The translations under genes were made by a program, and so were the position numbers. A DNA stretch of 64,000 nucleotides from Acanthococcus lagerstroemiae (lineage: Eukaryota > Arthropoda > Insecta > Hemiptera > Eriococcidae): positions 58,025,211-58,089,210 of the forward strand of contig CM063113.1 of NCBI GenBank assembly GCA_031841125.1, read 5' to 3'. The notes below the pieces were generated by a model. That model did not search any database. It saw only the letters and a list, made by a program, of their open reading frames with translations, and was not told the origin of the DNA. Each line of letters begins with the position of its first letter. Positions within the stretch are counted from its first letter, which is position 1. Shown one piece after another: positions 1,576 to 53,680 of this stretch.

Positions 1576-1782
1576 AGATTGGACTCTTAAGGAGATACTT
1601 TGCTGGATCATTTTAAATATTATAAAAATTATCTCAGTGCATACAACTTCATTTTTCCTTCGAAATGATATACCCATATTTTATGTGCATATTTTCGACA
1701 TATTATTTAGAGTGAATTAAACGCATAAAATATGCGCATATTTCGCTTTTTTTTTTGCATAAAAATTGCAGCCCTGATAATG
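1576..1782. repeat. Direct repeat, copy 1 (right end of hAT-like element)
   Basis: About 207 bp closely matching 4455-4688. The match includes the element's right terminus plus the first six bases of its outer flank (ATAATG). The partner copy is longer mainly because of an (ATT)n tract at about 4632-4657. Confidence 0.85.
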
Positions 1783-4454
1783 CACTGCCTGGTCGTACGA
1801 GTCATTCACCGACAGAATGGCAGTATCGTCCGCGAACGTGGCTAGTTCTGTGACCGGGTTAACCGGAATGTCTGATGAGTACAGTAGGTAAAGCAGCGGG
1901 CCAAGAGTACTACCTTGTGGCACCCCCGCTTCTATTTCTCGCTGGTTTGATACCGCCTCGTTATACTGCACCTTGAAGTTGCGGTTGTATAAAAGTACGA
2001 TTTAAGGATTTCGCAGTAGTTACCTGGGAGTATTCTACTGATTTTGTGGAGAAGAGCCTCGTGCCAGACTCGATCGAAGGCTTTCTCCACATCTAGGAAC
2101 ACAGCGGCACAGAACTTTTTTCCCTCAAGCGCCCTTTTTATTATTTGGGTAACACGATGCACTTGATCGACGGTCGAGTGATAACTGCGAAACCCATACT
2201 GGTGATCTGGGATGGCTAGTTTTTGGTCGACTATCCGCTTCAGTCTTTTCAAGAACAGCTTCTCGAATATTTTCATCGGGATTGGCAGTAGAGAGATCGG
2301 TCGGTATGACGATAGCTCGCTTCGCGATTTGCCGGCTTTATAGATAAGTATAATTTTGGCTTGCTTCCATTGGTCTGGTACATGCTTCAGCCTTAACATC
2401 CCGTTGTATATATATACAAGAAGAACGACCGCTGTTTTTGGAAGCTCCTTTAGAATTTTGGCCGAGATACCGTCTATTCCCGGAGCTTTCTTTACATTCA
2501 GCTCGTCGATTTCCTTTGCGACCTCCTTTGGGGTAATGAATGCGATGGTTTCGGGGTTAGCATCCTGGATGTTGATTACCATATCCGACTCTATGTCGCT
2601 TGGCTGAAAAGTATTTTCCAGGAACGACGCGAAAGCTTTTGCTTTGTCGGAGTCGCTTCTAATCCAGTGGCCATTTGCATCACGAATGGGAGATTCGTTG
2701 ACTTGTGGGTATTTCAGTCTACGAGTCGCTTTCCACAACGAGTAGTCCGACTCTTTCTTTGGGGAGAGCTTGTGTAGCTAGTTTTCGAGAGATCGTTGGT
2801 TAATTTTCCCAATCGCCTAGGAAGTTTCTTTACTCAGCTTGTTGAGTAGAGTCTTGTCGACTGGCTTTCGAGTTCTCTGCCAATGTTTGCTGGCTGCTCG
2901 CCTTTTCCGTACTAAATTACGTATGTAGTCTGGGTATAGGATTTCGCGGTTTGCTACCTCTAGCTCCTTGGGAGTAGCTTCTCTGGCTGCTTCTGCGACC
3001 ACCGTTGAGAATACCTGGACTGCGTGGTCGAGCTCAGCTGGAGATTTAATCCTCAGTCGGATTTTAGGAAACTTCTCTCGCTGAGTGTCAAGATCACCGG
3101 CGAGTGATCAGATGATAGATCTTCGTAGTTTCTGGCATCGAGGTATCTTGTCGAGACATTACGTGTGATGAAGAAGTCGATCAGATCAGGGGTTTTTGCT
3201 GGGTCTGTGGGCCAGTATGTGGGCTGTGAGCCTGCGATGAACGAACCGTTGAGCTGGTTGACTGCTTTCAGAAGTTCGCGTCCTCTAGAGTTTGTGTACC
3301 GCGAACCCCACTGTTCGTATTTGGCGTTGTAGTCCCCAGCAAGCTATCCATTTGGACCCCAGTAAGGAGAACATTGCGTTGAGTTCTGCGTTTGTGACCT
3401 TCGAGTTGGGGGGGGGGGAGCAGTAAACAGCCGCTAGCCTCGTGATCGTGTCATGGAGTTGGATACTAACGCTCGTTACCTGTGCACAGTTGGATTTGTA
3501 GCTTTGCTCCTCTGTGAACCAAACTCCATCCTTGAGAATTACAGCACTGCCGCCTTGTGCTTTGCCGCTCGGGTGGTTACAGAAGAGTACCCAGGGTTGC
3601 CACTTTCTGGAAAACCGGGAAAACCGGGAAAAGTCAGGGAATTTGGTCAGTCAGGGACAAGTCAGGGAATTTTCATTTAAGTCAGGGAAATTTTCTAAAA
3701 ATAACAAATGAGTTCGTATTTTATCAGAGTAAACTTTTTTTATCTGTTGGAATGGACTCAACTTTCTTTGAGTATTTCTAATATTGAAAAATATTACATA
3801 AATTACATCTGTACCTTCTTCTTCTCGATAGCGATTTTTTAAAAATCTGTATTGTAAAAAATTTCTGTGACTCTCCTCCCTCTGGGCTTTCTCGGAATCC
3901 TGTAAAAAAGTCAGGGAAAATTGGAAAAGTTGGCCTGGAAAACCGGGAAAAGTCAGGGAAAACCAATCCTGAAAAAAAGTGGCAACCCTGGTAACTTATA
4001 ACCTTTCAGTCTCCTTATGAAGAATCTGCTTGTAAAATGCTTCTCGGTGACTTGTGCGATGTCGACGTTCTCTTGACTTAAAAAGGCTTCTAATTCCACT
4101 TTTTTGGGCAGAAGACCATTAGCGTTCCAGAGGAGAATTTTGATAGCATTATTCATTTTTGCTTCTGCGTTTTGCGTTTTGGCGAAGAACTAGAACTAAC
4201 TTCTAGGGCCTCGATCCTTTTGACAAGGTTATCGAGTTTATTACCGAGAGATGTAATAAGCTCGTGAATCCTGGATAAGGTGATCTGAGAAGATTCTGTC
4301 TGGTTCGGCACTCTAGTTGGCATCTCGGGCTTCTGGCTTGACTCTGGATTTACTTTACGGTTAGGATAGACTGCTGCTGCGAACGACTTTTCCGGCTTTG
4401 CTTTAGCATCTACTGACTTGGCTTCCGAGGGTGGGGCAGCTGGGAGTTTCAAGC
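1783..4454 (-). pseudogene. Truncated Jockey-like non-LTR retrotransposon (ORF1 tail, endonuclease start, RT)
   Basis: Read on the minus strand, the fragment holds the end of an ORF1-like frame (about 4153-4455), then an APE-type endonuclease start (4156 downwards, with the ILLWNANGL motif), then a reverse transcriptase. RT motifs seen include KAPGIDGISAKIL, SYRPISLLP, HQYGFR and FLDVEKAFDRVW in the frame 2738-1932, and GVPQGSTLGPLLY and FADDTAIL in the frame 1971-1717. The two RT frames overlap, so a frameshift lies near 1975-2005. RT also stops just after the FADD block at 1783, so the thumb region, 3' UTR and tail are missing, and the 5' end is cut inside ORF1. The endonuclease is split by a separate insertion at about 3591-3991. 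The element is dead. The clade assignment (Jockey/CR1-like) is by motif style only. Confidence 0.85.
3591..3991. mobile_element. Short inverted-repeat element inside the LINE
   Basis: The ends CCAGGGTTGCCACTTT (3591) and AAAGTGGCAACCCTGG (to 3991) are perfect inverted copies. The flanks belong to the LINE endonuclease frame. The sub-terminal parts on both sides contain GGAAAACCGGGAAAAGTCAGGGAA, so the inverted repeat extends inwards imperfectly. No coding capacity. The target duplication is unclear; TA is possible. Confidence 0.7.
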
Positions 4455-18426: not shown

Positions 18427-21400
18427 TCATAAACTAGTCTCGATTGATAAAAATGTACGTGAATTCGGATTCGGCAGTCTTAGTTCATTTTGAAATTGAA
18501 TTTGCGATTGATTCATTATTTGAGCAGTACCGGCGGCAGTGGCGATAGTCGGCCTAACAGTATTCGTCTCCACGTTTGTGCTAGGCGGTCTGTGGTGTTC
18601 GACAACAGGAAACATCAACGCTTCTTCGTAGGTCGGCGGATCATCGACATCTCCGAAGGGATGTTCCTCGGCTCCGACTTCAGCGCTGGCAGTGGCGATG
18701 GCTCGACGCGCAGTGCGCAACAAGCTTAAACTGGAAGGAGACGTCTGCCGGCGACGAACACTCGCCGTCCTGGAGACTGGAGCCGGTGAGGGTACACAAA
18801 TATCCTTATCCAATCCTTCGACAGACGACGTATTCTGCACTAGCTGCGCATCGGTGTCCTCCATCGGAGAGCGACGGTCGTCCAAGAGTAACAACGCCTC
18901 CGAGTAACTCGGAACAAGAGCCGAAGCTATTTGATTGACGTCTCCTCTTGATTCACTCATTGTAGCTATGTCCAGCCACTCGGGTGTCTCGTCATTATCA
19001 CCGCTGTCCACACTATATGAACCGTATAACTGCAAAAGAGCTAGCTGTTGCGTCGAATCGGTTAAATTATTATAGTTTGTCCCGAAAAGTTTCGTGATCT
19101 GAAAAACCAAAGCGAATCGAGTTGTGACTAAAATTTGAAATACGCTAGCGTGTATATCTGTGGGTAGGTCGAATATCTAACCTTGAAATGAACATGAACA
19201 GTATTATATAGTAGGATCATACGAAACGGCCACGATAACAGACAACAAGAATACAGCCAATAGTAGAACGGATTAGCAAACCAAGGTCGTCTTCCAGACC
19301 TCGTATTTATGGCAACCACTTCTTCTTCAAAAGATGAGTAGTCGGTGAGATCTAAACCTTCGTGGATGTCCATATAATCGTCATAACGACGTAGCTCCCG
19401 GAAGAACATGGAACGCTGTTCCTCGAATTCTATTGCAGAGGCCATGTTGGCGAATGCGAAACCTGAAAAATACTGCGCAGTTAGAAAATACGGTGACTCG
19501 ACGGCAGCGCACGAATAACCGCCTAACTTATTATACCTTTGCTGAAACTGAATTTGACTATAGGTCCGCAGGATTCGTCTATTACTAAATTATTTGATAT
19601 GTCTGTTACCCCGCAGCACGCAAAATTGAAAGTCGAACTCGAAGTAAATGAATTCACTCTTTCTTGGTACACTTTCGTAGAAACAAAGTAAGTCCCTCTT
19701 CTGTACTGCGTCGTACGCCTTTTTCGACGAGCATAATGATAGCAAGTTGCTTTCCACCTGTAAATATTCGATTATAACATTGTAATGGCATCTAATTAGG
19801 AACCACTGTACACGGGGCGGGAATCACTGCCGATGCCGGATGTTGCGTATATACGGCGAACTGAGTATGCAATTTGCTTAACGTTTCGCGGTACTGCTGC
19901 TGGAGTGTGTGTATTATGAAGGAGGATGCAATGAGTAATAGCGAAGTAACTGACACTCTTTGGATTCTTATACAGATTATATTCCTTTTAGTCTTCGTGT
20001 CCTTACATCAGAATTCTGAGAAAATATGTAAGGATATGATTCTAAATGCCGGTCATCAACCGAAGTACATTTCAAGATATACTATGACTACGCACAATGA
20101 TAACATTCAATATTGATTGATGAGGTCACAAATTATGGCATTGCTATAGTCGGGCACCATGAAGACAAGATAGTATATTGCATATCTCCGAAAGTAGTTT
20201 GTTAATAGTGGAATTTGATGTATATGAACTTACATACCAGATAATTGGATCTGAATTCTTCATACGTTCAATTTTTTCTTTAATGGTTTCAATGTTTTCG
20301 GTGTTCCGATTGCATAATTGTATGTTGTCTGTGGCGTAACTGCACTCCATTAGATATAAGGAATACAGAACCACAGCGCAGAATATCAGCGTCCAACACA
20401 TATTTTTGTTTGAACCGTGCTCTTGGTTGATATTCACCTGTAACGCCGACAGGTAACAGAACTTCGGAATTTTTTCATAGGTTGCGGGATGACGATAAAA
20501 TAAATAATGAGAATTTTATGCTAACTTACTTGACTGGATAGTTGACGATGGCAATATAGGACGGATAAAAGGCAGGAACATATTAAACAAGTTAAAATTA
20601 CGCATTTCCAGTTTTGTTTCCAATGATTGACGGAACATATATTCAGTGCTTCGGGATATTGATCTTCCTGTTACAGTGTAAGCGTGGATGTTAGATATAC
20701 GGCAATATTAATCGAATGGGGTAAAACAAAAAGAGCCTCTATAAAAAAAATATTTGGTCCTCATTCTCTCGTGAAAACATTAGGTGGATAGGTGGAACCA
20801 TCGTTTGGATTGAAAATCACCTACAGAAAGCTAATCTATTGATTGTTGTTACTTAACATTGGAAGTCAGAAGAAGAAGGTAGGGAAGGGGTCTACTTATC
20901 TAGAAAACTAGAGGATAAGGCTAATACAATCCCAATTTTCCTTTTGAATGGCCATCTGATATTATAAAGCATTCCCGATGCGCTATATGCTACCAGTTAC
21001 CCGGGTAAATAAAGAGGAACAAGGGTAATCTGAGGGGAACAAATGGGTAACTTTTCCGCCACGGGTAATTAGAAGGTAACTAATTGCGTAGTATCCCGCC
21101 AGTCACCCGGGTAACTAAAGAGGAACCAGGGTTACAAACAGGTAACTTTTCCGCGGGTAACTGAGTAGCTAAAGGGTAACTAGGTAACTAGAGAGTATAA
21201 CTGGGTAACTAGAGGGTAACTGATCATTACCGGGAACGTATATGGAAATGACTTTGTTGGAGAGACGGTGAAAATCTAAGTTTTCTAACAACAAGATGAA
21301 GATTTCGTTAGATAGACAGCTAGAGACATTTTTTAAAGATCAAGCAAAGAAAGAAGTAATTTCTTCTCGCTTTTCAAATTTTGCTAACTGGGGATCCCAC

Positions 21401-36380: not shown

Positions 36381-39300
36381 TTATTCAGAATCACTATCAG
36401 AATCGGGAACTGGCTCTAGAGGTTGTTTAGTTGCCGATCGAGTCTCTGTGTTTGCTGCTGGTTTTATCATAGTTGCTGCGATGTAATCGCTCGTTCCTTC
36501 CGAATGCGTTTGCTCGATTTCAATTCTGCAAATTTCATAACACATTGCTCTTACAATTCCTCAAAAATGTTCATCAACTAATATGTATTGTAAATTAAAT
36601 AGAATATGATAGATAGCACTGTAATTTGTGAATAATGTGTATTCAGTGGGGTCAATCGGGGGTTTTTCAGCTATATATGTAGTTCACGCCTAATAAAAAT
36701 GAAATCATGAGATGGAGTGGTTCACATTGAGCTACCAGGGATTATATAAATCCTGAAATTATATTTTCTTATTTTCACGTGAATAATAATAAACAAGAAA
36801 GGTTGTTCATGCTTTCCAGAATAAGAATAAATTAGCGAGGACAAGATAACCAGAATTCTGAAATTGTTCTTGATTATTGCAGAAATAACAATTCGAGCAC
36901 TGCAAGAAATAAATTATGAAATCGATTTTTTGAAGTGACAGACTATTTTGACCAAAATTCGGCATGCCCTCATTCAGCATAGGCTGTCATTTCAAAAAAA
37001 TTGACTTCACGACTTCTGGCGTGCGTCTCTTCAAGTTGTGCATGAGTTATAGTTATACCTACTTCGTTTATATTGTCGCTCACAGTGGATTTAAAACCAC
37101 CATTACAGAAAACGAAACTAAATAAACGAAACATTCGATCATCCATTTCGGTTTCACATATGCGACCGTGTAAACTAATAATTACGTTTTGAACCCCTGA
37201 TTGTGATTCGAAATATTATATAGGTAACTAAAAAAATCAAATTTCTCCCGGTGGTCATCGTGCCTACTGATCATCTAGACGCTGTTATAAGCATAACAGA
37301 ACCAACCAACAACATCTTTTTTTGAGAACACGTGATTCGAAGTTCAAGAGCCATGTAGAAACCATATGACATAATGTTCACTGATAAGCTTTTTTCAACG
37401 TGAGTACACATTTTTGAATGGGGGGGGGGGCAATTTTTAAAGAATTCTACTTTTTACGCTCTTTTCAACGATACTAATAAGTAATAACTCATTTTGTCAA
37501 AAAATGTAGGTTGGTTCTGTTACGTTTAATAGTGTCCATCTGTGATTGTTGGAAATACGCAATTCAAAATTTACAGTTGGCCACCAGGTAGCAGCTTTGT
37601 CTTTGGAGAGTGGAAACTTGAATCTGTGCTGTAGCCGCCATTTTGAAAATGAACTGTATTATTCTGGTGATTTGCTTTTCTTTATCGTCGCACGTATAAC
37701 TCTGAAATTTAACTAAAAATTTTCATTTTCGAAGTACTCCGTGATATGTTTTTCTCGTTTGTCACAGAGAAATGATAAGTTGACCAAAAGATAGACTGTT
37801 CCGTTCGCTTGGTGATTTTCCATAAATTTTTATTTAAATCTGATCGCAGTAGACTCTCATTACAAATAGTGTGTTGATATAAATAGGTAGTTCATACTTT
37901 CAGTGTTTCAACAGAATTATTGTCTTACAACTGGAATTAAGGCAAGTAGCTAGTACCTATGTAAGTTATATTATTGAATAAAATCAACACCCTTGTCAGC
38001 CGACGAATATAAATACCTATGTTTATCTACTAATATTGCGATAAAAATTTGAGATTCAAATTTTTATTAATAATCGAGAATACAGTCCTGAATTACTGAA
38101 GATTAGAATGGCAAAACAACTTACTTGTATTCGTGTCTAGCTAAATGTCTAACATATTTTTCAGGAGGAGCATCACTGTCGCTGTTACAAATTGATACCG
38201 ATCTCACAGTAGTATGAGATACTTGCGTTATGGGCATCGTGAACTCGACGAAACAGTGCTTGGCTAATTCTTCTGGTACTTGATCATACGAAGTCAGTGC
38301 CAAGTGGCATACTAAGTTATGAGTTGTGTAAGCTCCTACAAACATGAAGAACTATGGTAAGTAGATACATACTCGCTCATTATATTATCTCATTACCGAG
38401 CTCATAATTGATAGGTGTAGTTGATAGGCCTCGGATTGGATTAATATTTCTTGATGTGGGTATCATTAAATCACTTCGTAATTTGGGTGACTATCAACTC
38501 GCCTAGTTATCACAAGAAGTAATAGTTAGGAAATAGTTGATTATTGATATTTTCAATTCAGAGTTTAACGGAAGAATAGGAATTAACTATATAGGTAGTC
38601 AATAAGGCATGTTGCCTGTGCTGTTGATAGTCAACTTTGTTTGATCTCTGTGTCGATTATGTTGATATCCGAGGTTTAGTGGTTGATACACCAACAGCCT
38701 AATGAGGTTTTGACTCACATTATTGATGAGTAGTAAAATCACCACTCAAAACTTCAAAATAATTTAGTGCGCTGTGTGGGTTTTGGATATATTCTGCAGA
38801 TACAAAAGTATAGCAATACTATATGTAGTATCCACATTTGGATTTTATTATTGGAAAATGCTTGATTTTGATCTGCCACATTTGGAATGTGGCTGTGTAG
38901 TTACTATACCTAGAGATAAGTACCTGCTGAGCATGATGATAGGTCGCATCGCGTTTTACTCTTACCTTGTCCTTCCTTCGGCAAACGAGACATCCGCCAA
39001 ACTATTGACCTGTGATGGTGTTCATATTTAGCGTGGCCGGATGTAACTTCTATTAAATGTGCTTCTAAGGTGTCTACAGCTCCCAAAAACCGCTCGATTC
39101 CTTTAATTTTACCCGTTCTGAAATACATTCGCATTCAGTTAGTACCTACCTCAAAATTTTCAACAGTAGTTTTAGCGATAATTACTCATGAGTATACAGC
39201 TGTAATATTGTAAGCACCTGCGATGAGCTGATTTGACTGATCCATATCTAAAATGCTTTTCTGTTCTGAACAAATATATCCAGCATTCTGGGATTGGTAT

Positions 39301-42300
39301 CCTCACAGCTACATCCTCACAAGGAATTTGACCTAGTTTTCTACTTGTAAACCCTGGGACTAGAATATCAGATAAAATATCCACCTGGAACACCATTTGT
39401 AGCACATAAGTTAGTAATCTATTCAGGATGCATAATATCCTCATATACAGGAAAGGGCCAACTCTGGGATAAAATAATATTTTTTTACCTTGTTTCCACA
39501 AATACGGAAAACAGTTTTCACCTGCAGCGGTAACTCTCTATTTTTTGGCGGCCGAACTCGAAATCTGAGCAGCTCTAAGTAACACGCATCTGGTGGCTTA
39601 AACCTGTAAAATCGAGATCGATATAATATAATAACGTTTATTTGAGAGTACATTGCTGGGTGTTTTGCCGACACGCCGTAATTTTTTATTTTATTTATAT
39701 ACCTATGCACGCTAGCGGTTATACCTTGAATGTACCCCCAGCCCATATCGGGCAAAGGTGTATCTCACCCTCTCCCATATTCCTTTCGTTCCTGAACAAT
39801 TTGTTGGAATTGTTTTGTTTTGTTTTTTTTTCTTTTTAGGAACAGATCGATCTAAAATCGGGATCGATATTGAAATCTAATTTTGAAAACATTGGGTACC
39901 TAAGCTTTTGATATAAACACATTCGGTGGTTATTTTTTCAGTTGGTAGGTAGTAAAAATGAAATGTGAGTACGGAGCTTCCCTTTTGTGATACTCACTTA
40001 ACTGTTTTAGTCTCTTCGTATACATCCTGTTGTATACACGAGTGAAATTCGGTATTTTCTAGCCGGATCCATTCTTCAGTTACTACAGGGATGATATCGT
40101 GTCTACCGACTACTTCTTTACCTTGTCTTCGTAAGTCATTAAGTCCAATCTCGATATCCGGCATGCCTATTTACAAAAACTTGGAAAAATAAGTATTTAT
40201 TTTTGATTCTCACAAATAGTAGTGAAATGAAGAATGAAATACAAACCTGTAAGGAATCCTAAAAAGAATAAGCGAACCCGAGCGATCTGTTTTGTGACAG
40301 AACCATTCATGTTCTGTTCAACGTACAGTTCGTCAACGGCGGTAATTTGCACTTCCTCCATTTTGTAGTTGATGTGTATGTTATCACGATGAGCGCCCAG
40401 TCTGAATAACGCATCTTCTACGCAGCTGCTGAACTGCTTCATATCTTCGTAATTGTGCGAACCTAATTTGCATATTAATGATATCTGAAACATTAAGAAC
40501 GTGGCTGGAAAACAAAGTGAATATTATGGCGAATTGGTATAAAGAATAAGGGTACAATTCATCATTCTGAGTTTCCAAATGTATGTTTTATATGATAAAA
40601 GATCGGATCTAATTCGATATAGTTATCCCATCTTCCCCTACAAAGTGATTTGGATTTAAGGGGCATACTCACTTGAGGGGAGTGTTCTACTGGTAATCCT
40701 AATTTTTTGAGATCGCTTCCGAATTCTTTTACGCCTTGGTAATCACCCTGAATGGCATAAGCTGCAAACTGGCTCAACTTGTTGGTTAATCGTTCTGCTT
40801 TTGTTACTTGTCCTGGCCTGACACCGGGTCTTTCCTTGTAAACCACGAACTGTATTTTGACTGTGAATATTTTCCCGTATTGATCATATTGCTGTGCACC
40901 TGCAAACAAGCGACAGTTAATGTATAATGCAGAGCCTGTAGTAAATTGGCATAATTTACCAGTTTAACTACATACAGCAAAAATAAATGATCCTCCCTCC
41001 CTCTAAGAAATTCAAGTTTACAGGCTGTTTAGTGCTTCAAAAGCTTGGGGATATAAGAACTATGTACATCTGCCACAGAAATAAAAATATGTTACCAATG
41101 TCGGAAATTGCATAGCAAGGTTGCAGAGGCCACTCATGGTGCAGCGTTTCTTTTCCATCATCCTTATTTACCAATTCGAGATGAGGCGTTTCGCCTTGAT
41201 ATACCAGTCTAACGAATACTTTCTTCCAAAATCTGAAGTTAAAGTCAAATAAGTCAACAGTTAGATACGATTAAAGAGTCATCCGATAGGTAAACTTTCG
41301 GAGAAAAAGCTTCCCTTCCTCTTGAAACTGAAAATTGGTTTTCAAGAACGTCCTAATATTATTGAAAATGGGTTCTTGGTTATTAGTGATGAACGTGGAA
41401 TTCTTGAGTGGTACACTTACTGGAATATACACATTTATCGAATATTAGACATAGAATTTATAATTTGTAATACCTTTGTCCCGTGAATTTCTTTCTGATC
41501 GGATACCGAATCTGCATGTCCCATCCAGGACCAGTGTAATTTGTCCTTGGAAATGGTTCCAATGGCTGGGAGACATCTTCGTCGAACAATGGCGTAGGAG
41601 GTGTTTCAGAGGAATCCGTTTTGGACATTCTCGGTGCTATGAAAATATTGACCGTATAGTTTTCTATTCTTTCATACACAGCCAGTCAGCCATAGGCAAT
41701 GATAATTAAGACTGCCGGGTCGCTTGAAAGCAGATTAGCTAGTTTGTCTTGGGCCGTGCAGGAGTAAGGGCCATCAAATAATATTTTTCAACGAATATTA
41801 CCATAAAATTTAACAATGTTCGCTCGCTAATGTAATTTTTGTTTTCATTTTTGTTATTTGTCCCGAGCCCCGCGAAAGCTCTGCTCTCTAAATCTGAATC
41901 AGCGGAATGCACTATGGTCTTCAGCTTTACGTAGGTATACAGATCATGGGATTGGTATACCTGGAGCTGAAAAACCAGCAAATTCTATTTATTCAAATTT
42001 AGATGGTGGCTGGCTCTGGGGAATATGGTCAAAATGGGGTTATATGTGAGGGTGAAAATGGACCAGTTGACCAAAAGTAAAATGTTACAGGAGAAGCGTT
42101 TAAAATTGAGTGTTTATTTTATTTTTTTTATTTTGTAATTACCGTTCTGTCACTTACCAACATTTCAATAGTGAAGGTCCTACACACTACTACACGCTTC
42201 CGTAGTCTCTTGTCCGTTTTTTTGGGAAAAAATTACTAACGTTTACCAAAGAATTTAAATGTTTGATGATCTTCGAAGAATTTCATCGAAAAACTTTGGG

Positions 42301-45300: not shown

Positions 45301-48300
45301 TTCCAAAATGTTGTCATGACAAAACCTTACATCGTTTTTTGTATGGATCGTTTCTCTAATAAAAAGAGATATTTCGTCAATGATTAAATGATAAACTATG
45401 CTAAATGACGTAATAATTGGCAATAGATTATGCTAAGTGACATTGCCATTACCTATATTAAGCGACATATGATAAAGCAGAAGACAAAATGATAAAATAA
45501 TTTTAATCAAGACATAACAAAACCAAATGACAAAACTCTGAATGATATAACAAAACAAAACAAAATAAAATGAAATAAAATGCTCCTCTGACATAATGGC
45601 GAAAAATTCTTTTGTCCAACAACACTGATGGAAACAGTCTACCAAACATATCTTTCATCAACAACCCAAGTATGGACGCTATTCAACGAAAGGGAACCTA
45701 CTACTAAAATCCGTTTTTTGAGAACATGTGATTCGAAGTTCAAGAGCCATGTAGAAACTATATGACATAGCGTTTACTGATAAGCTTTTTTCAACGTGAG
45801 TACACATTTTTGAATCGGCGGCCCAACTTTGAAAAATTCTACTTTTTACAATCTTTCCAACGATACTAATAACTCATTTTGTTTACAAATGTTGGTTGGT
45901 TCCCTTTTGTTGAATAGCGTCCATACTCCATATATTCTATCAATCAAATAACTCCATCAATTAAAACATTCCATTTAACAAATCTTTCACTACCAAAAAT
46001 ATTCAGCCAACGGAATCATTCTGCCAATTAGAATACTTTATTAACCTAATCATGTTGATGGAATGTAAGTATTGATAGAATGTTTCGACCCAAGATTACT
46101 AGAACTAGAACAGGTTAGTCCACTGAGCAAGGCGCAAATACTTCAATGACGTCACTGCGATGAAACTCATACAGGCCGCTTATGGGAATACAGCTTTTTT
46201 TTATCTTTACTCATAACTGATGTCCTCAACATATTTTTCTATTATCTTTTACATATACAGCATTCAATTGGCTGTCGTTAAAAAAAAAGAACTCTCTACG
46301 GCAAAAATTAAATTTTCTATTACTTTCTTATGAAGTGAATTTCGGCACGGGTAAGACGGGAAGAATTGTTGCGGATTGCATACCCGAGTGGACCAACCTG
46401 TTACAGTTCTAGTAATCTTGGTTTCGACCGGTAGAATGTTTTGATTGGTGGAGTTTGTTGTCAGAATACCGTCAACTGGGGTAATATCAAACATTGGTGA
46501 TAATTCGGACTAGGCAAACAATAACAATAACAACACCACCACCGGAACTAAACCTAACTGATAAGCAAACGGCGATTGCTACTTTGACTCCCATAAGAAA
46601 AACACACGGAGCAAAGATCATTATGTTACTACCTGAGAATAAGAAATTTCTTAGAAACCAAAGGTATAAATTTTTAATCCAGAAGGTTATTAGCATTTGC
46701 TAATAAACTTCAGGTTACTAACAAATTTCTCATTCTCAGATAGTAATATGATGATCTTTTGCTCCGAGTGTTTTTCTTATGGGAGTCAAAACGTTCGTTG
46801 GTCCAAAGTTGGGTATTTTTGCTCACAGTAGCCAAGAATTGTAACATAGTGTGTGAGGTGTGAAATCAAATCACCATTCACTTATCAAAAAATATCTATT
46901 CGACGCTAGCGCTTCTACAATTTGCACAGTTCTAATATTGAACACTGGGTACTAGATCACACGTGGGTGTATAATCAGACGCCATCTTGGTAGCAAAAAG
47001 AAGTAAATAGTAAACTAAGCAAGTGGGAGCGGCCTGTTGTTTGATGACCTGATAACAATACTATCGCCCCTACAGAAGATCTAAGGCACTGCCGATATTA
47101 CCCTCGCAGTCCAATATTACCCCACTTGACACTACTTAATGATTTGAAGAGATGCAGAAACCAGGCCTCAAGTCTAATCGCTTCCCGACTTTTGTATCCA
47201 AAAGTAATAATTGAGGATGTGATTGACTGCTGTCTAAGTGAAATTCAAACGATAATCAAATCAATCTCGATCACGGAACGAGACTTACCTTCGTGTTGAG
47301 CTGCCTGTCCTCCGCCATCGCCAAACGGATCGAATGGATCAGAGCTGGTAACTTTGTTCGCCTCACTTACACTTTCAAATTTGGCCTCGAACGCATCAAA
47401 GTCGTCCTTGGGTTGACTGGAAGCATTCATATCAGTGACGAAGAAATCGGAAGTGGCTGCGTTTGTAACCGCCGAGGAAGCGAATGGGTCTGGCGTGGAA
47501 GCCGGAAACGTATGTTGGGGGCTTGGGAAGGCATTATCAAAAGCTGGTGCTTTCTCGACGGCTTCGTCGAATATTAGACTCGGCTCTTTCTCGTTCACTT
47601 GTTCGTCGTACAGATTTTCGTTGGCGATGTTCTCATACGACATTATCGGCGTTGTGCTAATCACGGTCGGGAACTTGGGTGTCTCCAGTATGGGCGCGTT
47701 GTCGATACGATTGCTGGTGTCAACGGGACTGACATCTGGAACTGGCGGGAATACGCTAGAATACTGTTCTAGTTGCTCCTTTATGACTGTCGTATCGCCC
47801 ATGGTACCAGAATAGTCCAGAGAATACTTCTTTCGTGTCGGTATCATTTGTACCCGACTGGCGGTCATGTCGTGCGAGGCTTTTCTCATCGCGATGTAAT
47901 TGGTTTGCGGTTCTTTCTTATCGCCGCCAGGGTGGGCCGGTGCAAATATTAGTCGAGCTCCGTCGGCGGAATTTCGTGACTGAGTTTCCGCAGGCTCGGC
48001 TGGAGGTTCGAACACTGTCGGAGTAGATATTGGTACTGGTGGAGGAGGTAACGGCGGCGCCTCCCTGACAGCAACATGGTCGATGGAACTCCTTCTAGAA
48101 GTTTCCGAGACTAATGATGATTTACGAGATGTGTACGGGCTGTCTCTCGTTTCCATAGGCAAACGCGGGCTTTCGGGTTTACCAGCTGGGAATAAGTTGC
48201 TCAGATCGCTTTCGCATTGTATTGGAAGCTGCGGTGGCGGTGGTCTTGATGGAGGCGCCGGCGGAGTTGGCTCCGCTTTGGCTTCTTCGTCGCGGGATAA

Positions 48301-48996
48301 ATTTGCAATCGCGTCAAAAATGTTATAGGCTTCTTGTTGAATATCAGGTTGCCTGATACCATGAGTGAATTTGGGTACTTCGACGTCGTCGTCGCCTAGG
48401 AGGTCGTTCACCTCGATCATGGCAGTAGGACTGGGAGAGTTGAGTTCGCGCAGCGGAGTCGGGCTGGGTGTTCGGGTCGCCTGCAGTCTGTCGAGTAGAT
48501 CACTGGACGTGGCTTCCAGAGCACCGGTCACGCTGAGGATTAAGTCCTTAGTCTCTTTAGGTGGGCCCGGTCGCGGAGGTGGCGGTCGTCGCGGCGGACT
48601 TCGTCTCTCGGAATCACTTTCGCCGCCGGTGCTGCTTCTCCTCCTGCCTCGAGAAGGTTCTTGGTCGGTTAGCAACAAATCGGGCATGCCGCTTTCACGG
48701 CGACCCGGTTGAGGACTCGGATCTTCCGTCTGTTTGGATTCGGTAAAGAAGGTGCTTGTCGGAGCGGCTGCATCTCCCATCAGAAATTGGGCGAACGGGT
48801 TAGTGTATGTGCTGGATTGGGAAAACGCTTCAGTAGCATCGCCGCCAGACATGGAAAGGAACGGATTCGAGCTGGCCGCGCTGTCTTTCGCTTCTGGAAC
48901 AGCAAATGGGTTGAAAATCGGCTCGGCTCGGGGGGCCTCGAACGCGCCCATGAGGAACGGGTTTGTGCTTTGAGATTCGGTGCCGCCGGTGTTCAT
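36381..48996 (-). CDS. stnB: Stoned B (stonin-type endocytic adaptor), 1,212 aa
   Basis: Thirteen coding exons join in frame: 48996-47289 (ATG), 43629-43518, 43324-43197, 41636-41474, 41232-41096, 40899-40673, 40484-40247, 40166-39998, 39603-39522, 39384-39218, 39117-38966, 38335-38125 and 36525-36381 (TAA), 3,639 nt in all. The N-terminal third is disordered with four NPF motifs (TNPFLMG, FNPFAVP, SNPFLSM, TNPFAQF; EH-domain ligands), proline-rich runs and DPF motifs near residue 560. A stonin homology region follows (YPIRKKFTGQR, FWKKVFVRLVYQG). Next is the mu-homology domain (KIFTVKIQFVVYKERPGV, LELLRFRVRPPKNRELPLQ, EVTSGHAKYEHHHRSIVWR, EFTMPITQVSHTTVRSVS). In flies StnB is an AP-2-linked adaptor that retrieves synaptotagmin during synaptic vesicle endocytosis. 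The length is close to fly StnB. Its ATG lies 10 nt after the stnA stop on the same exon, which implies translation from a dicistronic mRNA. Confidence 0.95.
37276..37537 (+). mobile_element. MITE family M1, copy 3 (last stnB intron)
   Basis: The ends TAGACGCTGTTATAAGC and ACGTTTAATAGTGTCCA are inverted copies. The body ACTGATAAGCTTTTTTCAAC is shared with the copies at 22 and 45.7 kb. A G-run lies at about 37420-37429. Confidence 0.75.
42045..43153. mobile_element. 1.1-kb TA-flanked element containing a minisatellite
   Basis: The left end TGTGAGGGTG (to GGACCAGTTGACCAA at about 42060-42074) and the right end TTGGTCAACTGGTCC...CGCCCTCACA (to 43153) are inverted copies. TA borders both. The left half is filled by a degenerate repeat unit, AAATTTTCCAATGATTTTCA and variants (about 45 bp, 42280-42720). 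No transposase frame. It lies in a stnB intron. Confidence 0.7.
42280..42720. repeat. Degenerate ~45-bp minisatellite
   Basis: About ten units built on GAAGAATTTCATCGAAAAACTTTGG / GAAAATTTTCCAATGATTTTC, with many substitutions and small length changes. It lies entirely inside the TA-flanked element. Confidence 0.65.
43962..44274. mobile_element. 313-bp hAT-type MITE
   Basis: The ends CAGGGACGTACCGA and TCGGTACGTTCCTG are inverted copies with one mismatch. The flanking 8-mers GCTTGAAG and GCTTGATG match at 7 of 8 positions. A G-run of about 12 lies near the left end. It lies in stnB intron 1. Confidence 0.7.
45673..45923 (+). mobile_element. MITE family M1, copy 4 (best-preserved)
   Basis: 251 bp. 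The ends TGGACGCTATTCAAC and GTTGAATAGCGTCCA are perfect inverted copies, and the match continues through GGGAACC/GGTTCCC. It is bordered by TA at 45671-45672 and 45924-45925, as for Tc1/mariner-type MITEs. It has no coding capacity and lies in stnB intron 1. Confidence 0.85.
46469..47132. mobile_element. 664-bp MITE with a second inverted repeat inside
   Basis: The outer ends CCGTCAACTGGGGTAATATC and ATATTACCCCACTTGACAC are inverted copies bordered by TA (46467-46468 and 47133-47134). Inside, arms of about 75 bp (46583-46656 and 46727-46800, TTTGACTCCCATAAGAAAAA and complement) form a second long inverted repeat. It sits just beyond the first stnB exon. Confidence 0.75.
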
Positions 48997-49006
48997 GGTC
49001 TGGCTG
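48997..49006 (-). promoter_or_regulatory. 10-nt intercistronic spacer between stnA and stnB
   Basis: On the minus strand the stnA stop TAA is followed by CAGCCAGACC and then the stnB ATG. The base at -3 of the stnB ATG is A, a favourable initiation context. The spacer is far too short to hold a promoter, an intron or an IRES by itself. Confidence 0.9.
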
Positions 49007-50992
49007 TTAGTTGATCAGCTCGTTTTCGAGTAACTTCAACTCGGTTTTACCGGGTACAATGTGGTCGGCGATGGACGTATCGAACGGGTCTGCGTAGGCG
49101 TCGTCGATGTCGTCGAGGTCCGCGAACTTGTCAGGTTCCACCGGCGGGGGAATTTCCTCCGAGTCGATATCTCGCGTACTCGCGTCGCCGGTGAGAATAT
49201 CAACGTAAGCCGGTTCCGAGAGCGGCTCGATTTCACTTACTGAAACGTTGTATTTATTCAGAATTATATCGGTTATGGTGGGATTTGTGGCCGAGCTGGC
49301 GGACTGCTGGAAGCTTCTGGGATCAAATCTCTCGTCGTTGACGTCTGTCGCCTCTAATTCTTTCTCGATTAGTTTCAGTTCCAATTTGCCAGGCGCGCTG
49401 CTTATTTGCGACGTGTCAAACGGGTCGTAGTCTTCGGATACGGGGCTATTGGCTGCTGGCGTAAGTGGCTTTGTGGCGTGCGATTCTTCTCCGTGACTTT
49501 GCTCCAAAAAGTCAGTTCTGATCGGAGCCGGCGGAGTTTGGATGACACGTTCGGGTGGAGTGGCTGGGTCTCCGGCTCGCGGATCAAAATCGTCGTCCTC
49601 GAGTTGCGCTAACTGAACGCGGGTGTCGAGTAGTTCTCTCTCTAGCAATTTGATCTCGCTTTTGCCAGGCAGGAGGAGTTTGTCGGCAGCCGAGGTGTCG
49701 AAAGGGTCGGGCTCGCTGTCTTGCGGCGCGAGCGAACTGATTGGGGACAAGTGGGCAGCGCCGGGTGAGTCGGCGAGTGCTTGTGACAGCAAATCGATCG
49801 AAGTGGGCTGTTGAACTTCCACCGAAATAGACGTCTTCTTTGCTAACGATTCGGCGGCTAGTCTTTCGAATTCGTCGTCTACACTCTCGACAGAGTGTTG
49901 CTCGGTGAGCGGGGGTACAGAAGGAGTCGCAACGTTGATTTCGAATTCAGAGAGGTCTAATTTGGAGACGGGCTCGTTAACAGGGGCGGTGGGAGCGGGA
50001 AGAGGAGCGACAACTGGGGAAGGCGCCGGTGGTAGGAAAGTGGAGTCCGATTCGACGAATGTGGGATCGTCGTCTAGTAATGTCTTTACCGGTGATTCGA
50101 AGGTGTCAACTGTGTCGACAGCTTCGACGGGTCGGTCTACTCCTTCGTCGAAACTGGAGAGTAGGAGATCAGCAGGTCTGCCGCGACGTTTGGGCGTTCG
50201 TCTTTCGAGTGTGACTGGAGTCGCGCTTGAGGCGGTTTTGCCGGAGAGTACCTGGACTGCACAGCCTAGATTTAGATATCGTTTTTTCGGGTTCGACTCG
50301 ATAAATTTATCGGCTATGGATGTGTCGAAAGGGTCGAAGTCGTCTTCCTTTGTTGGACTGTCTGGGATGTAGGCGAGCTTGAGTTCGCCGCTAGCGACCG
50401 CGTCTACGTAGGATGTCTCGAATATACTATCGTCTACAAATTCCTCTTCTTCTTCTGGCTCTTCTTCGTCTTCTTCGTCCTCGTCGTCGTATTCGTTGTG
50501 CTCTTTATAATCTGTGTTTCGATCTCCTCGTACTTCACCAGCGTTTTCCTCCTTTCGAGAGTCTTGATCGCCGGTGTCCTGTTCGACTTTTTTACCTTTC
50601 TTCTTTTTTACTTTGTCCCCCTCGGCTGAATCAGTCTCTTCGGGTACTTTCTTCTCGTTCTCGGGTTGAGGAGGCGAGGCTGGGGCTTTTCGTTGGAAGA
50701 AACTTGTAGATTTGATACGATCGAGATCTTCTTGAGTCTTCTGTAGGATATTATCGACGCCCGCTGTTAACGCGTTAAATTTTTTCCATTCGTCACTCTT
50801 GTCTGTTGAGGAGGTGGAGGTGGTGGCGTTCTCTACCGACGATTGCTCTGCTGGATCAACTGCTGCACTCTGGTGCTGATGTTCCTTACGATATTTCTCT
50901 AGTTCTTCTTCGTTAAATAACTCGTCTTCCCCTTTGCGTTTGTGCTTTTTATCCTTCTTTTTTTTCTTTAAACCTTTTGGAATTTTCAACAT
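49007..50992 (-). CDS. stnA: Stoned A (stnA), 661 aa, first cistron of the stoned locus
   Basis: One uninterrupted frame. The N-terminus MLKIPKGLKKKKKDKK and the following ELFNEEELEKYRKE fit the fly StnA start as I remember it. A long acidic stretch (residues ~165-190) follows. The protein then carries four DPFDTS motifs, most followed by PGK-ELKLLE-EL: DPFDTSIADKF, DPFDTSAADKLLLPGKSEIK, DPFDTSQISSAPGKLELK and DPFDTSIADHIVPGKTELK. DPF motifs bind the AP-2 alpha ear, and StnA acts in presynaptic vesicle recycling in flies. There is no folded catalytic domain. It is shorter than fly StnA, which as I recall is about 850 residues. Oddly, it contains no methionine after the first, and its nucleotide sequence has only one further ATG in any frame. 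The acceptor at 51019-51020 places 26 nt of 5' UTR on the same exon. Confidence 0.93.
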   Translation of the reverse strand: MLKIPKGLKKKKKDKKHKRKGEDELFNEEELEKYRKEHQHQSAAVDPAEQSSVENATTSTSSTDKSDEWKKFNALTAGVDNILQKTQEDLDRIKSTSFFQRKAPASPPQPENEKKVPEETDSAEGDKVKKKKGKKVEQDTGDQDSRKEENAGEVRGDRNTDYKEHNEYDDEDEEDEEEPEEEEEFVDDSIFETSYVDAVASGELKLAYIPDSPTKEDDFDPFDTSIADKFIESNPKKRYLNLGCAVQVLSGKTASSATPVTLERRTPKRRGRPADLLLSSFDEGVDRPVEAVDTVDTFESPVKTLLDDDPTFVESDSTFLPPAPSPVVAPLPAPTAPVNEPVSKLDLSEFEINVATPSVPPLTEQHSVESVDDEFERLAAESLAKKTSISVEVQQPTSIDLLSQALADSPGAAHLSPISSLAPQDSEPDPFDTSAADKLLLPGKSEIKLLERELLDTRVQLAQLEDDDFDPRAGDPATPPERVIQTPPAPIRTDFLEQSHGEESHATKPLTPAANSPVSEDYDPFDTSQISSAPGKLELKLIEKELEATDVNDERFDPRSFQQSASSATNPTITDIILNKYNVSVSEIEPLSEPAYVDILTGDASTRDIDSEEIPPPVEPDKFADLDDIDDAYADPFDTSIADHIVPGKTELKLLENELIN

Positions 50993-51018
50993 GTTCTAGT
51001 CTAGTCTCGTTCGGGAAT
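50993..51018 (-). promoter_or_regulatory. 5' UTR segment of the stoned mRNA on the large exon
   Basis: Minus strand: a TTATTACAG acceptor, then 26 nt without ATG, then the stnA ATG in the context GAACATGT (A at -3). At least one upstream untranslated exon must exist. Confidence 0.7.
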
Positions 51019-51020
51019 CT

Positions 51021-53680
51021 GTAATAAATCACGTGCATTGTTAATATCAAATAATTGAATCATTGTATTAGTTTTGGGGGACGAGTTGAATACTTCCAAT
51101 TTGTTAATTTTTAATTGGCAACAGCTCTTGAGTAACCTCTCCTGATCCCTCGTCAGTAGGTCCCCGAGCTCACTAAGAACCGCCCTTAACGGTCCCTCGG
51201 CCTAAAATGACTTTAGGTAGCTAAGACCGACTTTCATGCTACATTTGTATGTGTATGTGGGTCAGACCTGGGTTTTATCTGTGAGTATCTGCAGATTTTC
51301 CAGATAAAATAAAAAAATTAGGGTATCTGATGTAGATAACGAAAATGTTCATCTGTAGGTTTCTCATTTAGATAATTTCGCCCGAGATTATATTCATCCA
51401 GAATTGACTGAAAATCTGACAAATATCTTTCTAAATTATCTTGCAGACTGTCATCTTCTTAATATTTTTATTTGATTAGTTTTTCATCACCGTACGTATT
51501 GCAATGGATAAAAATAGTCTAGTAGAAACTCGCCGGCTCACGACATGAAAAGAAATATCACATTCCTTGTATAGTCTGATATAAAGTCCTATTTGACAGG
51601 CAATCTAATGATGGTATTTAACGAATTTGTCCGGGAAATCTTAGATAATATTATCGAAATAATTTCTAGGCAGCTTCTGGAATTCTATCGATGATATCGG
51701 GTATATTGCCCTTCGTCTTATCTTCATAGTTACCTATCAAAAATATAGATTATCATTATCTTTAGATCACTTTCCTCATTGCCGTGTCCAAGTGTGATCT
51801 CTAGAGTTCAGAAGGGCTGGTGCTTACTACCATTGATAACAGGCTATGCTAGAAGATATAATTTTCTCAATCATAGTCTGTTATGGAACGAAATTGGACA
51901 TCGGCCATTCTCGACCCAAGGTACAGATATACATCTTGAATGATCGTAGGCACGCCTTTCCAAATTACGCAGTATATTCTCCAATCACGATGAAATAAGT
52001 ATGCACTACGTACCAGTGACATACTGACAAGGAAACCTTATTTCGTACATTTTTCCCAAATTTAAAAAAGAAATCACTTGTTTCCTTCGCCAATACCCTG
52101 TTTTCATATAGTTTCATGCTTAACCCCCGCCCTTTTATAGAAAATTTCTGTGTACGTCACTACTACACCCGCTTTCCATTGATAAAAATATTCATCACCT
52201 CTCAGATTTTTTTTGCCTATATCGTAACGGGGTGGGGTGAATATGGGCATTGCCTTCCTCCTCCTAGCAGAAAAGCCAAGGCTTTTATTTTTTTCCCGTT
52301 TTATTTTTATTTTAATTTTATTTTTTGTTTTCCTTGGCGTGAAATTTTCAAATTTCCTCAAGTTGTTTCCCTGGAAAAATGGTTACACTACAGGTTTGAC
52401 TGGGTGTCCGTATTATTTTGAGTAAAATGCTGTCACTACTGATCTCATATTCCTCAATCGATATTTCAGAGTTTGAAGAAAGAAATTTAACTAATTATTT
52501 TAATTTCGAAACACATAAGGCGACTACGGTTCAAAGGCATCATATATTTCTCCGACAAGTTAGTTGTTATAACTAAGCAAGTCTAAGAACTCATAAGTTG
52601 TTCACGTTTTCTTTAGTCTGTCACAGCTGAGGGCAGGGGAGGACTGGCCATATGAATAGCCAGGAAACTTCCGGGCGGAACGGCCTAATTCATAAGATCA
52701 TTGATGGTTCATTTGGAAATCTTCAGTCGCTGTAATGACTGGGCGAGAGAAAAGAAGAAAATGAGACATAGTACAAGGACTATGGGTTATAAATAATAAA
52801 AAATTGGGCCGATGATACAATAGTAATTTTTTTGATAGCTTTTGGATCATAGTCTGTCTTCAGCTGTAAGTGAGCTGAATATTTTGTTTTTGCATATGGA
52901 AAATCTGTCACACAAAAAAAAAAATCCTTTAATATTAATTTTATTATAAGAAGGAACCCCTTTAATATAAATCTGAAAAATCGAATACTTTTGATTCAGC
53001 TGCCATTTTTCTGGATGATTTATAAAAGTTCATAAATTCCTTGATTGATCTGATGTTAATCATGCACTCTCAATCTCTCTCAGAAATTGCACAGAAACAT
53101 GTCTTAGTTAATTTTTTTCCCGCTGTTTTATAACTAATCCAACAAGTGCTCGACATTTAATCTGTATTAATGGCTACTGAACCTCAACAGAAAATGGTAT
53201 TACTAAGTTTGAGACTGTACACAAAACAAGGTATGAAATCGATCGGAGAATTCCTAATTTTAAATTTTATGCCTTAATTTTCTTAGATTTTTCCCTTGGA
53301 TTTGTCAGTAGGTACAAGAGAATAGTGAAACTTAAGTTCTAATCCCCTAACAATTTAACCCGAGATCGATGTGAAAACTGCTCCGTTTCTATATCTCTTT
53401 TCCATGTAAGATTAGAAATCTGTCTCCTCCAACCACTTCTCGAAAAACACTGAGCTGGAAGTCGAGATCACTTTATGTTGTATCTAAGCAAAGAAAAGGA
53501 ATTTAGAGATTGCTCTATAATGCTGAAAAGACGTTCCCTCCCCTCCCCGAAAAAAGTGATTCGAGATTTAAGTACCACTTTCTGTCTTTCCCTTTATTCT
53601 GTCTGCAGCTACAACACGATGGAAACTTTGCAAATCCCTTTTCTGTCAACATGAAAAATAGAACAGGAACTAACATCCCG
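51021..53680. other. Probable 5' intron of stoned, left part
   Basis: No coding exon is recognised. AT-rich DNA with a repeat-like GGACTGGCC...GGGCGGAACGGCC patch at about 52637-52686. Confidence 0.4.

Follow-up and report, generated by a model that had tools for sequence, protein, structure and literature searches.

The stoned locus and its two reading frames

The window analysed here, the whole stretch of 64,000 nt taken from the genome of the hemipteran Acanthococcus lagerstroemiae (658 Mb in 438 contigs), carries on its reverse strand two long reading frames that we assign to the stoned genes stnA and stnB. The two lie on contiguous DNA, stnB opening at 48996 after a spacer of 10 nt, and the parts of the locus are as follows, in window coordinates.

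50993..51018, reverse strand: 5' leader in the same exon, 26 nt, without ATG, bounded by a putative splice acceptor
49007..50992, reverse strand: stnA coding sequence, 661 codons and TAA, ATG start at 50992, two ATGs in 1,986 nt
50775..50789, reverse strand: the only non-start ATG of stnA, out of frame, opening a 4-codon frame followed by TAA
48997..49006, reverse strand: intercistronic spacer, 10 nt, CAGCCAGACC, without ATG
47289..48996, reverse strand: first coding exon of stnB, 1,708 nt, four NPF motifs, GTAAGT donor directly after
41461..41685, reverse strand: open stretch, probably with a later stnB exon, stonin-like sequence in its translation
40565..40963, reverse strand: open stretch from the list of reading frames, probably with a later stnB exon
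38913..39134, reverse strand: probable part of the mu-homology-domain exon of stnB (PF00928, E 0.013)

The outer limits of the exon are putative: the acceptor AG at 51019-51020, upstream of stnA, was placed by eye, and the end at 47289 was assigned from the GTAAGT donor.

In a protein search, the first reading frame matches proteins that their sources name stoned-A; the best match shows 93% identity across 97% of the query, and that of Kerria lacca, a scale insect (Hemiptera, Coccoidea), 43% across 68%. The protein encoded here starts with MLKIPKGLKKKKK, has a lysine-rich N-terminus and carries four DPFDTS motifs; the available part of PMC3373503 describes fly StnA as having a lysine-rich N-terminus and four repeats containing DPF. 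In the accessible portions of PMC3393740 and PMC3373503, StnA is reported from insects only. For the first exon of StnB, with its four NPF motifs, 83 homologous proteins were found. A paper on insect synapse proteins (PMC2374702) names both StnA and StnB and contains neither of the words dicistronic and methionine, and the available section of a paper on POLG (PMC10742948) is only loosely relevant.

Downstream of this exon, where the C-terminal mu-homology domain of StnB would be encoded, the PF00928 match at 38913-39134 scores 15.3 bits (E 0.013), under the cut-off of 31.6 bits, and is suggestive only; a PF00928 search across the whole genome listed no match inside the window. The open stretches at 41461-41685 and 40565-40963 presumably belong to stnB, which they resemble, and a family search with their translations returned no family match. 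By eye, a long inverted repeat with a foldback or MITE-like look is seen at about 46790-46590 (reverse strand), within the intron that follows the first exon of stnB. Elsewhere on the reverse strand, positions 1720-3650 contain pieces of reading frame that we take to resemble the endonuclease and reverse transcriptase of non-LTR retrotransposons, and 18430-19589 contains two reading frames, one of them GC-richer and with the string PPTYEEAL.

AUG triplets and synonymous sites of stnA

Only two ATGs, the start codon and one out of frame, occur on the coding strand of stnA, and the count stays at these two over the 2,022 nt between 51018, the putative first base of the exon, and the stnB ATG. 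The near-absence of ATG in all three frames of the 1,986 nt, from which the original prediction had set out, is thus confirmed; its position for the lone exception (50789-50787) is exact, as are its count and its 4-codon reading frame. This triplet opens the frame ATG GAA AAA ATT TAA and overlaps the single tryptophan codon of stnA (GAA-TGG), and since it is out of frame, the 661-residue StnA does indeed have no internal methionine. The first exon of stnB has the 13 in-frame ATGs that had been claimed for it, the start included, and 11 out of frame. The figure of about 31 ATGs expected by chance in stnA was too high: the expectation is 24.5 from base composition and 12.1 under a dinucleotide model.

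Two shuffles separated the mRNA from the protein. When synonymous codons were exchanged among positions of the same amino acid with the protein fixed, 20,000 runs gave a mean of 11.7 out-of-frame ATGs in stnA (sd 2.3, minimum 3), and none reached the single one observed; the stnB exon has 11, against 12.7 expected. Dinucleotide counts were additionally fixed in a soft-penalty chain from which only states with exact counts were sampled (645 and 382 samples for the two frames). Under this constraint the mean for stnA is 7.1 (sd 1.8, minimum 2), with the observed count reached in 0 of 645 samples, and that for stnB is 10.9, against 11 observed. Shuffles keeping codon and dinucleotide use were the control by which the original prediction proposed to be judged, and with 1 ATG versus 7.1 they do not refute it. 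A first dinucleotide-preserving swap test, with means of 0.56 (stnA) and 10.7 (stnB) and with none of 1,500 samples exceeding the observed count in either frame, was rejected because a single count-keeping swap cannot create or remove a NAT-G junction.

The source of out-of-frame ATGs in stnA is almost only a T-ending Asn, Asp, His or Tyr codon before G, and it is here that the avoidance is found. All 40 such codons before G end in C (NAT in 0 of 40), whereas NAT is used in 30 of 71 before other bases (one-sided Fisher P 8e-8); in stnB, on the same exon, NAT makes up 10 of 27 before G and 24 of 50 before non-G. By frame, 10.9 ATGs are expected at xAT-Gxx with the protein fixed and none is seen, and 0.8 is expected at xxA-TGx under the codon shuffle and one is seen. 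The other C- or T-ending codons of stnA comprise 32 T and 75 C before G, and 50 T and 76 C before non-G; a general T|G bias in stnA is mild. The 40 avoided sites are distributed over successive sixths of the reading frame as 5, 12, 3, 4, 7 and 9, all NAC, and the frames that they would open have a median length of 18 codons (range 1-64), so that selection seems to act against diversions even of this brevity, except at nucleotide 204. The AUG depletion on the path to stnB exceeds the effects of composition and protein. The claims that selection acts on the mRNA beyond the protein alone, and that frames which are not translated are depleted beyond what protein constraint explains, are therefore supported by the contrast at NAT codons and by the empty xAT-Gxx frame, respectively, the synonymous signature being that of one species, the one whose genome was analysed.

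ATG has the lowest out-of-frame z of the 64 triplets in stnA (-4.65), followed by CCC (-2.84) and TGA (-2.83); low TGA may in part follow from the avoidance of NAT-GA. Near-cognate starts were considered as a further target. CTG (z 0.13), GTG (-1.2), TTG (-1.3) and ACG (+4.1) are not depleted and thus give no evidence that near-cognate starts matter, and AGG is mildly low (-1.91). The excess of ACG is as expected when NAC-G replaces NAT-G.

For comparison, we assembled 14 stop-to-stop reading frames of at least 300 codons from the same genome, which came from searches for HSP70, BTB and adaptin and may include some non-coding ends; the 58 loci found were reduced to 14 by leaving out frames below 300 codons, those with N, shorter overlapping ones and duplicates. 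Their out-of-frame ATG z has a mean of -0.29 (sd 1.27, minimum -2.85), against -4.75 for stnA, and the pooled NAT counts are 218 of 445 before G versus 461 of 906 before non-G. The minimum belongs to an HSP70-like frame (L010, 1438-3894, forward strand), with 9 out-of-frame ATGs against 17.2 expected and with NAT in 7 of 47 codons before G versus 23 of 68 before non-G. A shorter frame, L029, has one out-of-frame ATG against 3.3 expected (z -1.67). Low counts can also occur in other reading frames of this genome, which is a point against the reading of stnA proposed below.

Methionine in StnA homologues of other insects

Homologues were collected with both proteins as queries, each search scoring the candidates that shared most words with the query (7,989 and 7,985) and were 0.55-1.75 times its length; all figures for StnA refer to the best 120 of 549 matches. 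The named matches belong to Hemiptera, Orthoptera, Coleoptera, Hymenoptera, Thysanoptera, stick insects, termites and a caddisfly, and no flies are among the named matches of these 120. Outside the protein searches, none of 278 and none of 184 pattern matches in viral, bacterial and archaeal contig collections was confirmed as stnA DNA.

After residue 1, the 120 listed StnA homologues contain 46 methionines in 97,712 residues: none in 75 proteins, one in 44 and two in a single protein. As many as 42 of the 46 fall within the final three positions of the protein, another three are true starts of over-extended predictions (P0047, P0059 and P0065), and the sole internal one is at position 868 of 905 in P0083. 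The StnB homologues have 800 methionines in 41,102 residues (1.9%), with at least five in each of 83 of 83 proteins, many of these matches aligning over part of the query and some seeming to begin at a later methionine; at this rate about 1,900 would be expected in the 120 StnA proteins, against the 46 found.

Every one of the 42 terminal methionines directly follows the tail SEL, and the residue after the ESEL/F tail in the listed homologues is Ile in 51, Met in 42, Phe in 17, Leu in 5 and Val in 2; P0024, P0038, P0039 and P0044, which are without the usual ESEL-like tail, were kept in all counts of 120. Because methionine is tolerated after the SEL tail, where the reading frame that it opens ends within three codons, the in-frame constraint on the mRNA becomes separable from constraint on the protein. 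Across the insect orders represented by the 120 listed homologues, StnA is nearly methionine-free, and what relaxation there is falls almost exclusively at its final codons. The C-terminal methionine itself (in 42 of the 120 listed, ants, bees and caddisflies among them, for example P0021, P0050, P0056, P0085 and P0098) would form a minimal start-stop before stnB and is a possible hand-over element.

The second residue differs between the two proteins. At the true start of StnA it is Leu in 71 and His in 49 of the 120 listed, so that base +4 is C or U in all 120. For StnB, 70 of 83 proteins have Asp, Ala or Glu at this position, as do 67 of the 78 whose first 20 residues include NPF, which places G at +4. 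In addition, when the lengths of the longest contigs were compared for 118 of the 120 StnA and 82 of the 83 StnB proteins, at least 25 pairs of stnA and stnB matches agreed exactly, a single near miss that differed by no more than 5 serving as a guide to chance; these pairs indicate that the linkage of the two genes is probably conserved.

Probable leaky scanning to stnB and its alternatives

Our data favour a model whereby stnA and stnB, separated by 10 nt, would share a single exon of the stoned mRNA, and some scanning 40S subunits would miss the stnA AUG, cross about 2 kb of stnA and start at the stnB AUG. An AUG in any frame on this path would catch the 40S subunit, and AUGs would therefore be removed by selection: in frame by the loss of methionine codons, and out of frame by the choice of the C-ending synonym at NAT-before-G junctions. 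We consider it highly probable that leaky scanning to stnB, with removal of AUG in all frames by selection on the mRNA, is the best reading of this locus. Leaky scanning had been put forward in the original prediction, and it emerges as the mechanism best supported by an avoidance that extends over the whole 2 kb, by the sparing of CTG, GTG, TTG and ACG and by the terminal methionines of the homologues.

The source of the leak is a separate matter. The stnA start reads AAC-AUG-U, with A at -3 and U at +4; the AAC ahead of the AUG nearly matches the fly consensus, and only the U at +4 is poor. This context is not clearly poor, and the stnB start (ACC-AUG-A, with A at -3 and +4) is not clearly stronger; both points weigh against the leaky-scanning reading. 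A short leader or other effects are possible sources of the leak at stnA.

Reinitiation, in which ribosomes would translate all of stnA, terminate, resume scanning and restart at stnB 10 nt further on, accords with the very short spacer, and the reading frame of one to three codons that the C-terminal methionine forms at the stnA stop in 42 of the 120 listed homologues could aid such a restart. However, it would need AUG avoidance near the stop only, and the avoidance spans the whole cistron. Restart after a reading frame as long as the 661 codons of stnA is, on general knowledge, also expected to be poor. We regard reinitiation as improbable here, although the available part of PMC4528330 cites Wall 2005 for renewed ribosomal scanning. 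It is very improbable that stnB comes from a separate transcript, through a promoter of its own or through splicing that skips stnA, and that the loss of AUG is a relic of a dicistronic ancestor: an avoidance with 0 exceptions among 40 sites would be expected to erode where selection is no longer current, and the linkage of stnA and stnB is kept in at least 25 match pairs. A GTAAGT donor hexamer does lie inside stnA, at 49240-49235 on the reverse strand, which makes splicing within the cistron conceivable in principle, though the window contains many such hexamers (45, where 33 are expected).

Internal entry near the junction, whether through an IRES, which the accessible text of PMC4528330 suggests to be common in fly dicistronic pairs, or by another route, is an extremely unlikely driver of stnB, as a search of 48500-51300 for Rfam families yielded none with E of 1 or less, folding at the junction is ordinary in two 144-nt stretches (z 0.27 and -0.76), and such entry would leave the loss of AUG over 2 kb unexplained. 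Finally, it is hardly credible that protein constraint and composition are all there is, with an acidic, probably disordered StnA from which Met, Cys and Trp are missing by chance and with ATG scarcity as a by-product: the near-absence of Cys and Trp (one each) does explain why the xxA-TGx frame is almost empty, and the plain dinucleotide model expects just 12 ATGs, but this explanation is contradicted for the out-of-frame part by both shuffles, leaves the xAT-Gxx frame unaccounted for at fixed protein, and meets both an undepleted stnB and a methionine accepted after the ESEL/F tail in 42 listed homologues.

Leaky scanning past stnA also has precedents. The core mechanism is already published for flies, as papers citing that work relate: the part of PMC11892635 available to us credits Wall, Phillips and Kelly (2005) with leaky scanning and missing in-frame AUGs for Drosophila stoned and Snapin, and that of PMC3372440, citing Wall 2005, states that in-frame AUGs attenuate the second reading frame in both. 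The locus described here shares with Drosophila stoned the same gene pair, the same order and a first cistron poor in internal AUG, and in Drosophila stoned and Snapin output of the second cistron is reported to rely on leaky scanning, with in-frame AUGs attenuating it; unlike the Drosophila work as conveyed by its citing papers, the present analysis quantifies out-of-frame avoidance at synonymous sites, in a hemipteran and with controls. In bicistronic loci of Chlamydomonas and Auxenochlorella, ORF 1 contains fewer AUG 3-mers than expected, ORF 2 output falls when an out-of-frame AUG is placed between the ORFs, and leaky scanning is favoured (PMC11892635, accessible portion); ORF 1 is relatively small there and the expectation was derived from length and GC, whereas stnA covers 1,986 nt and was tested with protein and codon use fixed. 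For ORFs I-II of rice tungro bacilliform virus and badnaviruses, leaky scanning covers about 900 nt without internal AUG, and rice tungro bacilliform virus tolerates a short uORF (PMC5902531, available text), but it is a plant pararetrovirus with a shorter path and a non-AUG first start. The bicistronic mRNA of Drosophila sloth1/sloth2, for which leaky scanning is backed by reporter tests (PMC9681215, part available), has a small ORF as its first cistron, without a long AUG-free path. Among the titles and abstract openings searched, which included few subscription papers, we found no report that insect stoned avoids AUG in all frames or at synonymous sites. As far as this search went, what is new is the test of all frames at synonymous sites in a single non-fly insect, together with the nearly methionine-free StnA of 120 listed homologues from several orders.

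The stnA cistron would provide a clean natural record of how strictly start codons must go for the scanning of about 2 kb of coding RNA, and one in which codon synonyms separate selection at the level of the mRNA from that at the level of the protein. The in-frame constraint is suggested to be common to distant insect orders, and the maximum length and the strictness of leaky scanning become testable by comparative genomics. We tentatively speculate, at somewhat less than even chances, that stnA, with about 1.8-3.3 kb, is kept AUG-free in every frame across winged insects by synonymous purifying selection, and that its lone relaxation, the methionine among the final one to three codons, serves as a start-stop hand-over to stnB. 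If this is true, stnA would rank among the longest leaky-scanning paths of animal nuclear mRNA.
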